Positions 19,752-38,930 of a DNA stretch of 44,877 bases are shown piece by piece. A program made the position numbers and the translations under genes. Source of the stretch: a virus. The stretch's first letter is position 1. Each line of letters begins with the position of its first letter. The stretch covers positions 1 to 44,877 of the IMG/VR virus record IMGVR_UViG_3300036853_000096; one strand, 5' to 3'. The notes under the pieces were generated by a model. The model was not told the origin of the DNA. It made no database searches and saw only the letters and a program-made list of their open reading frames with translations.

Positions 19752-19973
19752 TCATTTGAGCAAAGCGCGGATGGCGGTGGCGATGCTGTAACGAGGCGTA
19801 GTTATATGGATTGTCGCTCGCATCGCAATCATAGCGCATTCTTCGATAGTCCGGTTGCGCTCGGCTAGGAGGGCTCGGGCGCATCGTTCTTCAAGTTCGT
19901 CCAGGCCGGTGAACGGCAGCATCACATTCTGCGCCACTTCTCGGAAGTGGTCCGGTATCTCAGGCTGTGTCAT
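19752..19973 (-). CDS. Hypothetical protein, 73 aa
   Basis: The product starts MTQPEIPDHFREVAQNVMLP and continues with ELEERCARALLAERNRTIEE, resembling small phage accessory proteins of the MTxxIPxxxxxxAxxV type. It has no membrane segment or catalytic motif. It lies 6 bp after the 19980 gene and 9 bp before the 19566 gene, so the three form one unit. Confidence 0.55.
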   Translation of the reverse strand: MTQPEIPDHFREVAQNVMLPFTGLDELEERCARALLAERNRTIEECAMIAMRATIHITTPRYSIATAIRALLK

Positions 19974-19979
19974 GGGCGG

Positions 19980-20189
19980 TCAGTCTCCTTCAGCAGAGGG
20001 TGGCGGAACAGCCAGATCGTCAATGAACTGCCCCTGCTGCTTGATCGCGTCGAGAATGCCGATAAAGTCGTCGACACTCTCTTGGTCGCGAAACGCAAAA
20101 GTCCCGCCCAGCCATTTCCCCTCATTAAGCCAGACGATGGAAATGTTCGCCCAGTTGCGGGCCGGTTGACTGGCTGACACGTCATTCAT
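19980..20189 (-). CDS. Hypothetical protein, 69 aa
   Basis: Starting at the ATG at 20189 (MNDVSASQPARNWANISIVW), it is a small mixed alpha/beta protein with FAFRDQESVDDFIGILDAIK and an acidic Pro-rich end. It is the first gene left of attP. In an integrated prophage, attP recombination would separate it and its two downstream neighbours from int, so they need their own promoter or read-through from host DNA. Confidence 0.55.
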   Translation of the reverse strand: MNDVSASQPARNWANISIVWLNEGKWLGGTFAFRDQESVDDFIGILDAIKQQGQFIDDLAVPPPSAEGD

Positions 20190-20230
20190 CGCGCTTCTCC
20201 ATCCTTCGGCGCCGGGGGAACGGAATTTAC

Positions 20231-20455
20231 GAAGTTCCCTCTGGTGCGCGTGAACCTGATCGCGTGAACGCAAAGGGAACATGGTGCCGGATAAGCCCTT
20301 GTACGAAGTACTCTTTTCCCGGCATTCTGCGGCTTGCAGTGGGGATGATTTCGTTTACACCGAAGATGTCGGGAGTTCGAGTCTCTCATCGCCCACCAGC
20401 ATTTGCAAGGCTTCCAGCCGATTTTGCGAAGTTCCCGCCAAGTTCCGTGAACCTG
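20231..20455. other. attP: Phage attachment site attP with flanking arm-type repeats
   Basis: The centre is a 50-bp tRNA-Val 3' half (20349-20398). On each side lies a direct repeat built as GAAGTTCCC, 10 variable bases, GTGAACCTG: 20231-20258 on the left and 20428-20455 on the right. The two parts start exactly 19 bp apart in both copies. Paired repeats around a tRNA-derived core next to a tyrosine integrase gene are what arm-type integrase sites look like. The right arm is also coding sequence, near residue 335 of the integrase. Confidence 0.8.
20349..20398 (+). other. tRNA-Val(UAC) 3' half (att core, not a full tRNA)
   Basis: Visible parts are the anticodon stem TTTCG (20349-20353) pairing with CGAAG (20361-20365), the seven-base loop TTTACAC with anticodon TAC (20356-20358), a five-base variable region, the T stem GGGAG/CTCTC with loop TTCGAGT (20376-20382), acceptor strand ATCGCCC, discriminator A and CCA (20396-20398). 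No D-arm and no matching 5' acceptor GGGCGAT occur upstream. It is therefore the tRNA segment carried by a phage to restore the host gene on integration. Confidence 0.85.
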
Positions 20456-21444
20456 TCCAATTCCAAAGCCGCCGCCGCATTGCGCAGGTATGACGGGCTA
20501 TAGCGGGCATAGACGCGGATCGTGATGGAGATATTTGAGTGCCCCAGGTACTGGCTGATTTCAGCCATCGGAACGCCAGCCTCGGCCATCCAAACGGCGG
20601 CCGTGTGGCGAAAGACGTGCGGCGACACATCGGGCACCCCAGCACGGGCCGCCGCAGAGCCTATGGCGCGTTTCACGCTCGCCACCTTCTCCCCGGCCCA
20701 CTCCACCACGTAATCGCTCATGGCCTCGTTCTTGGCCGTTCTAAGGGCGGCCATCAGCGTGTCGTTGATCGGAACGGTCGCCCTGCCTTTTCTGCGCTGC
20801 GTATCTTTGGGGTCGCGAAGGTGGAGAAGTCTTCGGTCAAGATCGACACGATCCCATGTGAGTTCCAGCAGGGCAGAGATTCTCGCCGCTGTCGCCAGCA
20901 TGAGGTGGATCGCAATCCGTACATGGGGCAGAATGACAGCACGCATAATCGCTTGGACTTCATCGCGGGTCAGGTGCCTAGTTTTCGGTTCCGGCTTTTG
21001 CGGACGGTCTATGTCGGGGGCTCGGTTGATGAGCCGTCGTTTTTCTGCCCATTTAACAACAGTTCGAAGGTGCCCCAATTCAGTGTGAATTGAACCGTCA
21101 CTTCGTCCGGCTGCCCGTCTCTGCCGAACGTAATGTCGGCAATCATCAAGGGTAATTGTATCGGCATCCCGTTGGGCAAAATGAGGTGAAAGTGCCTTCC
21201 AAGTGTACCGCATCGTTGTGACCACTGATCGCCCGTCCTTCTCAATGCAGTACCCTTTCCATAGGTCGGCTACGGTCGTACCCTTCGGCCGATTCACCTC
21301 GGCATAGAGGGCCGGCGCAAGCTGGAGAGCCTGGCTCTTGTCAGCGGTTCCAGTCGCGACACGGTGGCGCTTTCCTGTGTCATCGTTCCATGTGACGGCG
21401 AGCCCGCCTCTGAATTTGGTGAGCCGCCACGCTGCTGCCGACAT
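20386..21444 (-). CDS. int: Tyrosine-type integrase
   Basis: The 352-aa product starts at the ATG at 21444. The N-terminal part (MSAAAWRLTKFRGGLAVTWN) looks like an arm-binding domain and residues about 57-140 like a core-binding SAM-like domain. The catalytic domain shows Arg188 (ATAARISALLEL), His276 and Arg279 (SPHVFRHTA), His302 (YLGHSN) and the nucleophile Tyr312 (RVYARY). It integrates the phage into host DNA at a tRNA-Val. Its last 13 bp, including the stop, lie inside the tRNA-derived att core, so integration could alter the C-terminus or stop codon. Confidence 0.93.
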   Translation of the reverse strand: MSAAAWRLTKFRGGLAVTWNDDTGKRHRVATGTADKSQALQLAPALYAEVNRPKGTTVADLWKGYCIEKDGRSVVTTMRYTWKALSPHFAQRDADTITLDDCRHYVRQRRAAGRSDGSIHTELGHLRTVVKWAEKRRLINRAPDIDRPQKPEPKTRHLTRDEVQAIMRAVILPHVRIAIHLMLATAARISALLELTWDRVDLDRRLLHLRDPKDTQRRKGRATVPINDTLMAALRTAKNEAMSDYVVEWAGEKVASVKRAIGSAAARAGVPDVSPHVFRHTAAVWMAEAGVPMAEISQYLGHSNISITIRVYARYSPSYLRNAAAALELDRFTELGGNFAKSAGSLANAGGR

Positions 21445-21608
21445 TCGTATTCCTCCACGTCTGATCCCCAGATGCGGATCAGCTTGCCGCCCGCGCGCCA
21501 GGATGGCAATTCGCCACGGTCGATCATATTGCGAACGTGACGCTCGGAGCACAGCCAGTGCTCGGCTACCATGCGCGGCGTCATCACGCGGGGCAGCGCT
21601 CTGCTCAT
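21294..21608 (-). CDS. xis: Excisionase-like HTH protein
   Basis: The 104-aa product starts at 21608. Residues about 9-55 (MTPRMVAEHWLCSERHVRNM, then DRGELPSWRAGGKLIRI) form a winged-helix/AlpA-type domain like those of phage excisionases, followed by WGSDVEEYEC. The C-terminal half is Ser/Arg-rich and probably disordered. It directly precedes int, and its frame runs 151 bp into int in a different phase. Excisionases bend attP DNA and bias recombination toward excision. Confidence 0.75.
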   Translation of the reverse strand: MSRALPRVMTPRMVAEHWLCSERHVRNMIDRGELPSWRAGGKLIRIWGSDVEEYECRQQRGGSPNSEAGSPSHGTMTQESATVSRLEPLTRARLSSLRRPSMPR

Positions 21609-21799
21609 GTTGCCTTCCCGGCCTCGCGAAGAAACACGCGACGTACTCTCCAGCCGCTTTTCTTGGCGATTTCGTAACCGCCGTCGCCCTCCCAATTCTG
21701 ATCGGCCCATTCGCGAACCTGATAGGCATACGTCCGCACGGACACCTCAAGTATCCAGCCTCGTCGGCTAACCAATGCAAAGGCGATCTGTGCTCTCAT
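21605..21799 (-). CDS. Hypothetical protein, 64 aa
   Basis: It starts in a 4-bp overlap with the gene before it and overlaps the start of xis by 4 bp, so it is coupled within the leftward operon. The basic, aromatic-rich product (MRAQIAFALVSRRGWILEVS, then ADQNWEGDGGYEIAKKSGW) may bind nucleic acid, but no family is recognised. Confidence 0.55.
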   Translation of the reverse strand: MRAQIAFALVSRRGWILEVSVRTYAYQVREWADQNWEGDGGYEIAKKSGWRVRRVFLREAGKAT

Positions 21800-36954: not shown

Positions 36955-37344
36955 ATGACGATTGGCGCAAGTGGCGACACTGTTGGCTATGACGCCGGTA
37001 ACGGGCGTTATCAGACTGCTGCTTTGGTCGTTTCCGTCGACCGCAGCGGTAATCCTACAGGCGCAGCTCCGCTCGGCGCCGGCACCGATCGTTCGGGCTC
37101 GATCACGCTCGGCGGCACGGCGCAGGTGCTCGCGGCTGCCAACACATCGCGGCTTACACTCGTCGGGCAGAACATAGATCCCGCTGAGGATATGTGGATC
37201 AACGAAGTCGGCGGCACGGCGACGGCCAACACGGCCGGCTCGACGCTGGTTCCGGCAAAAGCAACGTTTTCGATTGATACCACCCGCGCAATCAGCATCG
37301 TGGCGGCGACGACCGGCCACAAGTTCACGGCGGTCGAACTCTGA
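36955..37344 (+). CDS. Small beta-rich virion protein
   Basis: The 129-aa product (MTIGASGDTVGYDAGNGRYQ) is Gly/Thr/Ala-rich, with SGSITLGGTAQVLAAANTSR and a run of alternating hydrophobic residues. It looks like a small structural protein that decorates heads or tails. It follows TerL and overlaps the propeller-like gene in TGATG. I do not recognise a named family. Confidence 0.5.
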   Translation: MTIGASGDTVGYDAGNGRYQTAALVVSVDRSGNPTGAAPLGAGTDRSGSITLGGTAQVLAAANTSRLTLVGQNIDPAEDMWINEVGGTATANTAGSTLVPAKATFSIDTTRAISIVAATTGHKFTAVEL

Positions 37345-38930
37345 TGCGGGTCAATTCGCCAAGACCGAGGCCGGGCGGCGGGCACGCCTCGCTGCTGTGG
37401 ACGCCGCAGTACGACATCGACACGTACGGCGGCCTATGGTGGGACTACCGCGACATCGTCGACGGCACGGTCTCGGCCTGGGTGTCGCGCTGCGGCAAGG
37501 GGCAGCAGGCGCTGCTCACTGGCGCCGGCCCGACCAAGGACGTGAATGGCGTCGCATTCAACGGCACTACGCAGGCGCTTTCCCGATCGACGGCAACCAA
37601 CGCAGCAGTGCATCTGCGGTCGAACACGGTCCCTGACAGCACCTATGGCATGTCGTCGGACGGAGCTGGAAAAGGCTTCACCTGCACCGGGCTCACGCGC
37701 GTAAACGGCAGCGACATATACTGGCTGGGCAACCATGGAGACGCGAGCGCCGCGCATGACGGTAGCGGTGCATGGGATCCATCACTGATCAAGGTTCGCC
37801 GCGATCCGGTAACAGGCGCATTGACCAAGATCGGAGAGATCAGGGTAAAGCCTCTCCTCGGCGCCAGTGTCCAATCGATCCAGGACGTGACGTTCGACAG
37901 TTCCGACAATACGCTTTGGTTTGCTGTCGCAACCGGCTCTCTCTTGGGCGTTTATCACGTCACGCAGGACGGCGTGCTCCTGTCGGACACGATCACGGCG
38001 AGTTGGGCGCCGAATGGCTTGGCCTATGATCCTCGCGACGACGGGATTTTCATCAATCGCGAGTCGAGCTCCGGAAACGGATTGGAGAAGCGCTCCTGCG
38101 CGACCGGCGCAGTCACGATGGCGTCGATCAATCCGTCCGTGACGGCTGCGGATCAGCTCAGTTTCGACAGCACCACGCACGAACTGTTGCTTAGCTACGG
38201 CACCAATTCTCCGCCCGGCAGCGTCCAGGTTTATGACGCCGAGACGCCTACGACGCTGGTATTGGCGGGAAACATACAGTTGCCGGCGCAGTGCAATGCG
38301 ACAGAGGGCATTTACCGCGAAGGCGACCGGATCATCAACCTCAACGACGACTGGTATCACCCGGCTGGCTCTTTGCTTAACCAGAGCGTCGAAGTCCGCT
38401 GCTGCCCGCCGCTGCCGAAGATCGTATCCGTCCACATGACGGCTCTCGTCTCGGCGACGACCGGCACCGACTGCCTGATTGAGTTCGGGGCACCGCTCGG
38501 CGGCTCCGGCAATGGCTGGGGCATCTATCCGACCTCGACAACCGCGCTCAACCTGATCGTCAACACCGGAGCGAGCGGCACAGGCCAGCAGTCGACCGTC
38601 TCGAGCGGCGCCATCTCGGCGCTCACCTCCATGCGGCTGATCGATGTCGTCTTCAACATGAGCGCCAAGTCGGCATCGCTGCGGATTGATGGGACAGCCG
38701 TTACCACGGGCATTCTGACGAACTGCATCGGGAGCCTGACCCTGGCGCAGATCATGCGGCTGGGCACATCAGCCGATAGCCGGTTCGCGTCCTGCGTGCT
38801 CAAGGATGTGATTATCGTGGCCGGCGCTTCTGACGTTCAGCGGATGGAAGGCTGGCGCGCATGGCAGCATGGCCTCACGGGGCAGTTGCCGGCCAACCAT
38901 CCATACAAGAACGCCGCGCCGACGCCGTAA
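37344..38930 (+). CDS. Beta-propeller / lectin-like surface protein
   Basis: Residues about 100-330 of this 528-aa protein read like blades of a propeller: IQDVTFDSSDNTLWFAVATG, GVYHVTQDGVLLSDTI, GLAYDPRDDGIFINRE. Residues about 350-510 look like a concanavalin-type jelly roll, and the C-terminus (EGWRAWQHGLTGQLPANHPY) is one I know from phage proteins with LamG-like domains. It is probably exposed on the virion and may bind a cell-surface glycan. No signal peptide. It lies between TerL and portal, an unusual place for a receptor-binding protein. Confidence 0.6.
   Translation: MRVNSPRPRPGGGHASLLWTPQYDIDTYGGLWWDYRDIVDGTVSAWVSRCGKGQQALLTGAGPTKDVNGVAFNGTTQALSRSTATNAAVHLRSNTVPDSTYGMSSDGAGKGFTCTGLTRVNGSDIYWLGNHGDASAAHDGSGAWDPSLIKVRRDPVTGALTKIGEIRVKPLLGASVQSIQDVTFDSSDNTLWFAVATGSLLGVYHVTQDGVLLSDTITASWAPNGLAYDPRDDGIFINRESSSGNGLEKRSCATGAVTMASINPSVTAADQLSFDSTTHELLLSYGTNSPPGSVQVYDAETPTTLVLAGNIQLPAQCNATEGIYREGDRIINLNDDWYHPAGSLLNQSVEVRCCPPLPKIVSVHMTALVSATTGTDCLIEFGAPLGGSGNGWGIYPTSTTALNLIVNTGASGTGQQSTVSSGAISALTSMRLIDVVFNMSAKSASLRIDGTAVTTGILTNCIGSLTLAQIMRLGTSADSRFASCVLKDVIIVAGASDVQRMEGWRAWQHGLTGQLPANHPYKNAAPTP

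Follow-up and report, generated by a model that had tools for sequence, protein, structure and literature searches.

The attachment site (attP) of the phage studied here is ordinary in kind: it is built on the 3′ half of a tRNA-Val(UAC) gene and lies beside a tyrosine integrase gene (int). The part worth following is its polarity relative to int, which is the reverse of that in the closest relatives of the integrase. An earlier note had raised the possibility that a switch between the free and the integrated form is built into this site; such a switch is not supported.

Taken as a whole, the following explanation is very probably correct. This temperate phage would integrate by means of a lambda-type tyrosine integrase (Int) at the anticodon loop of tRNA-Val(UAC), supplying the 3′ half that restores the gene. 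Two matched repeats are predicted to serve as the outer P-arm and P′-arm binding sites of Int, and integration would leave the integrase unaltered. In the lineage of the window, attP appears to have been inverted in place relative to int. We propose that this inversion is the reason why int overlaps the P′ arm and the tRNA in so unusual a way: int would have lost its old end, would now read through the P′ arm and would use the first in-frame stop codon, which by chance lies within the tRNA half.

The phage genome and the core of its attachment site

The window, by which we mean the whole stretch of DNA analysed (44,877 bp), has a 121-bp direct terminal repeat and thus reads as a circular phage genome in its free form. 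It encodes a terminase, a portal protein, a primase and a methyltransferase, as a complete-looking phage would. Between the terminase and the portal lies a 528-aa ORF (37344–38930) with no matches in PHROGs. A search for a sister phage by means of the portal protein gave a single distant match (46%), which was unhelpful for attP.

The integrase gene occupies positions 20386–21447 on the minus strand, and its 353-aa translation matches PF00589 (E 1.8e-25) and phrog_1 (E 1.3e-61). Upstream of it, on the same strand, a small HTH protein (21294–21710) matches HTH_17 (E 1.1e-7) and, over part of its length, phrog_66 (E 1.3e-5), which is annotated as 'excisionase and transcriptional regulator'. These matches point to an excisionase-like role.

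The attP core was found at 20350–20398 on the plus strand. Its 49 nt correspond to positions 28–76 of tRNA-Val(UAC), CCA included, and are 100% identical to the tRNA-Val(TAC) of locus L163. The anticodon TAC falls at 20356–20358, and the anticodon stem is fully paired (5/5). ARAGORN detected no complete tRNA in the window, only this 3′ part, so the earlier description of an attP based on a 3′ half without its 5′ half holds. With a tyrosine recombinase gene adjacent to it, the site has the layout of a tyrosine-integrase attP of the anticodon class. The half tRNA folds no better than shuffled sequences (z 0.08), a result that bears on RNA only, and the idea that it is a stable RNA was rejected. 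Rfam gave no matches in 14 loci, although half tRNAs were recognized in them both by eye and by motif; a half scores too low.

In the window, identity between phage and host starts at tRNA position 28; in L003, L013 and others it starts at about positions 31–33. Because it begins there in both the window and its relatives, strand exchange would most plausibly take place within the anticodon loop, at about 20354–20360.

The exact 47-nt core occurs in 6 stretches of 5 other IMG/VR contigs. Each of these contigs has one complete tRNA-Val(TAC) whose 3′ half is identical to that of the phage, and one of them has a second, 3′-half copy at its opposite end. The exact 49-mer was absent from all 289 sampled Alphaproteobacteria, and no lysogen of the window phage was found. 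With up to 3 mismatches allowed, it was found in none of 5 bacterial genomes, and the 3 matches obtained were virus records already known.

Relatives of the integrase and their targets

Integrase scans covered 80 loci from bacterial genomes (of 86 found), mostly alphaproteobacterial as judged by their titles, and 80 from viral contigs (of 133 found). The best identity to the window integrase among the sampled loci was 63–64%. The catalytic tyrosine region was present in 158 of the 160 loci, which together with the window gave 159 integrases.

For 91 of the 159, a tRNA 3′ end was located within −150 to +420 nt of the int stop. Of these loci, 60 are 'convergent', with the tRNA directed against int (48 complete tRNAs and 12 halves), and 31 are of the 'same' class, with the tRNA and int directed alike (28 halves and 3 complete tRNAs). 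The other 68 lacked a tRNA end recognizable by motif, many of them because the contig stops at int; in L031, L032, L054 and L069 an end missed by motif was found by ARAGORN or BLAST. In three same-direction loci (L136, L155 and L026) a complete tRNA, Val (CAC) or Thr (GGT), lies about 168–273 nt past the int stop and is possibly carried whole by the phage. In L092 and L097, by eye, a short HNH-endonuclease-like ORF begins right after int, at the place expected for attP, and no tRNA half was found within 420 nt.

The targets include tRNA-Val (TAC, GAC and CAC), Arg, Thr, Pro, Met, Ala and Gly, among others. The three closest relatives, L003 and L004 (Mesorhizobium elements) and L085 (a viral record), are all integrated in tRNA-Val(TAC), and they display the integrated form with a restored tRNA and a displaced 3′ fragment. 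The complete tRNA and the 3′-half copy are 18.1 kb apart on one contig in L003 and 17.9 kb apart in L085.

Elements of only about 18 kb, as bounded by these tRNA-Val(TAC) copies, are far below the size of the window phage and are perhaps satellites or islands with a phage-type integrase. The L004 contig (C24) holds three 3′-half copies of tRNA-Val(TAC), at 225905, 238008 and 255550 (spacings of 12.1 and 17.5 kb), that is, two elements in tandem at one tRNA.

Candidate arm-type sites on both sides of the core

The window contains two copies of the motif GAAGTTCCC-N10-GTGAACCTG, and no more than two, placed as direct repeats at 20231 and 20428. This agrees with the matched, equally spaced repeats described before, and a repeat search recovered the same pair as 17-nt (88%) and 12-nt (83%) repeats 197 nt apart. 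The left copy belongs to the candidate outer Int arm-type site of the P arm (TACGAAGTTCCC..GTGAACCT, 20228–20257, plus strand), situated 122 nt from the core, which scored 21/25 against 17 for the best of 20 shuffles. The right copy belongs to the candidate site of the P′ arm (TGCGAAGTTCCC..GTGAACCT, 20425–20454, plus strand), 27 nt from the CCA end, with a score of 20/25 against 15. As previously claimed, it lies within int, which the translation of the gene bears out. A second, inner P-arm element (TACGAAGTACTCTTTTCCC, 20302–20320, plus strand) was identified by eye, not by statistical scoring, and appears at the same place in L003, L101 and L099, among others. The P arm overlaps at most the start of a short minus-strand ORF, while the core and the P′ arm overlap int, the only ORF in the attP region with a family match.

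Alignment of the relatives on the tRNA showed that an element TACGAAGTGCTC-(gap)-GGTTCA-n-TGAACCT flanks the core on either side and points the same way relative to it. Scores were compared with dinucleotide shuffles for the window sites and with mononucleotide shuffles for the P arms of the non-redundant set. The best match lay 119–123 nt before the 49-nt core in 30 of the 42 P arms of this set, namely 22 of 30 from 'same' loci and 8 of 12 from 'convergent' ones, compared with 11 of 420 shuffles; in the other 12 arms it lay outside this interval. P′ matches scoring at least 18 were present in 33 of 69 arms and in 3 of 690 shuffles. Their distances from CCA fall at 26–29 nt (20 arms), 37–40 nt (7), 48–50 nt (4) and 62 nt (2). 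These steps of about 11 nt, with a broad best period of 11–12 nt in a simple test, are only suggestive of helical phasing of the P′ sites. The consensus was drawn after viewing the same sequences, so the scores are not independent of it, while the spacing is.

Because the same layout recurs in relatives with a related integrase, with the direct repeat at nearly the same distance from the tRNA, we read the repeats as beyond chance. Conserved in both sequence and spacing on either side of the core, they resemble the arm-type sites of a lambda-type intasome, and we infer from this that Int would bind them as the outer P-arm and P′-arm sites. An IHF-like AATCAAnnnnTTA was seen by eye in the P′ arms of relatives; it is poor in the window.

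Alternatively, the two repeats might be a duplicated int 3′ end left by a rearrangement and not protein-binding sites. The left arm does share an unbroken 22-nt stretch, GGAATTTACGAAGTTCCCTCTG, with the 3′ coding end of the L003 int, and part of this arm may be old int sequence. Such an origin of the repeats is nevertheless unlikely, as the same element stands at a fixed distance in phages whose arms are noncoding, where it flanks the core on either side and keeps one orientation relative to it, and the P′ copy of L003 lies in non-int DNA at the other end.

Inversion of attP relative to int

In L003, L004 and L085, int is placed on the opposite side of attP from that in the window and runs with the tRNA. 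In a blastn comparison of the window with L003, int aligned on the same strand (65.5% over 1143 columns), whereas the P arm and the core (20217–20399, 183 bp) aligned on the opposite strand (76.8% over 185 columns, E 2.5e-34). The same picture, with int collinear and the P arm and core inverted, was obtained for L004 and L085. Between the window and L003 P arms, 111 of 137 columns match, the most matching positions among the 42 P arms compared.

A 31-row int tree joins the window with L003, L004 and L085 at a support of 91/94, below the tool's starred level, and a tree joining it instead with L006, which has the same polarity, was not rejected (p-AU 0.146). A second pair gives a comparable picture. 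L024 and L117 are sisters at 100/99, both at tRNA-Arg(CCT), and in blastn their int genes are collinear while the tRNA core lies on opposite strands (98% over 51 nt).

A larger int tree, of 78 rows, requires a minimum of 10 changes in attP polarity, and starred (well-supported) branches force 6 of them. With shuffled labels the mean was 22.7 changes, and 0 of 500 shuffles were as low as observed. The tree derives from the 91 loci, from which 3 were left out for int fragments shorter than 150 aa and 10 more for a short or distant int or a complete tRNA in the 'same' class. The arm spacing remains fixed across the polarity changes.

Past attP, on the side that does not carry int, the genes matched between convergent and same-direction phages are homologous and share their strand in 10 of 10 matches; few phages take part in these (L112, L118 and L119 against L089, L093, L101, L134, L148, L150 and L153). 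In these phages, thus, the flanking genes keep their place and it is attP that turns.

Exchange of whole int-attP modules between phages, with no inversion of attP, might also produce the polarity differences. Phages are mosaic, and most polarity changes on the tree coincide with a change of tRNA target. We consider this possible but doubtful, given that the window and L003/L004/L085 differ in polarity while int lineage and target (tRNA-Val TAC) are kept, and that L024 and L117 do so at tRNA-Arg(CCT); in these cases int did not bring its own attP polarity. It is also conceivable that attP alone was replaced by an inverted relative.

Inversion in place also offers an account of the unusual end of the window integrase. 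Its similarity to the L003 integrase stops at ...ALEL. Beyond this point the L003 tail is encoded by the P arm of that element, while the window tail, DRFTELGGNFAKSAGSLANAGGR, differs from it and is encoded by the P′ arm and the tRNA half. Many convergent relatives have as their int stop a TAG that the arm site itself supplies (TAGGTTC); the window has CAGGTTC at this position and int reads on to the tRNA. The tail is most readily explained as a side effect of the flip of attP. The presence of GGAATTTACGAAGTTCCCTCTG in both the left arm and the L003 int coding end is a faint hint that the L003 arrangement came first.

On balance, we lean towards the view that attP is a self-contained cassette that has inverted in place repeatedly within one tRNA-targeting integrase family, keeping the order and spacing of P arm, core and P′ arm, so that int moves from beside the P arm to beside the P′ arm. 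If so, a flip would swap the prophage end that carries int (beside the restored tRNA or beside the displaced fragment) and force new C-terminal tails of int out of arm and tRNA DNA, and the control of int in the lysogen may change with it. The polarity of attP relative to int is usually regarded as a fixed part of the integration module; repeated inversion with the arm spacing kept would mean that it is the core, not the gene, around which the intasome is constrained. The window with L003, and L024 with L117, are natural pairs for asking whether the position of int in the prophage affects the control of excision. Arm sites can also be predicted from the comparison for a large and mostly alphaproteobacterial family of integrases, which might serve as integration tools at many tRNA genes.

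Relation to known integration systems

The mycobacteriophage BPs is reported to have its attP in the repressor gene, with integration truncating the repressor. The window shares with such systems an attP that overlaps a coding sequence near int. The overlapped genes differ: in the window attP overlaps int, and it does not lie inside a repressor gene, as integration-dependent immunity of this type would have it.

The fragment itself, running from the anticodon loop to CCA beside a PF00589 integrase, resembles Islander class A and the sublocations of Williams. Islander lists 2083 islands whose sites are centred on the anticodon and 3760 that have 3′ fragments (PMC4383910). Unlike that class, the window int reads across the entire P′ arm and ends within the tRNA half, and attP polarity relative to int varies within its integrase family.

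Orientations of tRNA and integrase are divided into the classes STI, SIT, OC and OD, a scheme reportedly due to Panis and co-workers. As a lysogen, the window would belong to class OC (opposite, convergent). The census gives 438 OC and 736 STI pairs and states that convergent pairs were not autoregulated in the cases tested (PMC2951348). It compares integrases overall, and repeated inversion within one fixed-arm family is not described in the part consulted (PMC2951348). Our literature search on attP polarity found no title or opening of an abstract describing repeated attP inversion within one integrase family, which is weak evidence of novelty, as subscription journals were for the most part not covered.

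Predicted effect of integration on int

The int stop codon, TGA, lies at 20388–20386 on the minus strand. The claim that attP overlaps int is therefore right, since the gene ends inside the half tRNA. The stop had been assigned to the acceptor strand; it is indeed within the tRNA half but spans the last two bases of the T stem and the first acceptor base.

From this overlap the earlier note argued that recombination could change the end of the integrase. Such a swap of the C-terminus, as a switch between free and integrated forms, has been described for Myxococcus phage Mx8, whose attP is situated inside int and in which integration provides this gene with a new 3′ end (PMC6070905). The integrases of Mx8 and SSV extend across attP (PMC4383910), and the window resembles them in that int overlaps attP and the end of the tRNA gene. 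Besides the window, L057 is the only one of the 60 convergent loci in which int ends in the tRNA.

In contrast to Mx8, the window int stops before the likely crossover, at 20386 as against about 20354–20360, so that nothing would be swapped. The stop is about 26–34 nt 3′ of this point, on the int side. Since all int codons, the stop included, stay joined to the phage-derived tRNA half, integration should leave the end of int as it is: if strands are exchanged in the anticodon loop, int remains on phage-derived DNA past its stop codon, whether it is read from attP or from the junction on the tRNA side. Strand exchange at a more 3′ position would also be without effect as long as the host tRNA equals the phage half, as it does exactly in 5 of 5 contigs with a complete tRNA. 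Finally, int tails are alike in the free-form relative L089 and the prophage records L087 and L088. These observations make an integration-dependent switch of the C-terminus highly improbable.

Integration could instead act on the mRNA. Everything downstream of int past the crossover is replaced, and the loss of this DNA might alter int mRNA stability. Retroregulation of int by sib in phage lambda is the precedent. In the window, no terminator-like hairpin was found at 19900–20700 on either strand, which makes this mode of control improbable here. The sib element is also mentioned in the orientation census (PMC2951348).

An apparent overlap of int with the tRNA in L032, L063 and L159 proved to be an artefact of reading frames extended past earlier stops, and after correction only the window and L057 remained. 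In the latter, an Acidiphilium integrase, the last codons lie 29 nt deep in tRNA-Val(CAC), an independent case of an int gene that ends inside its target tRNA.
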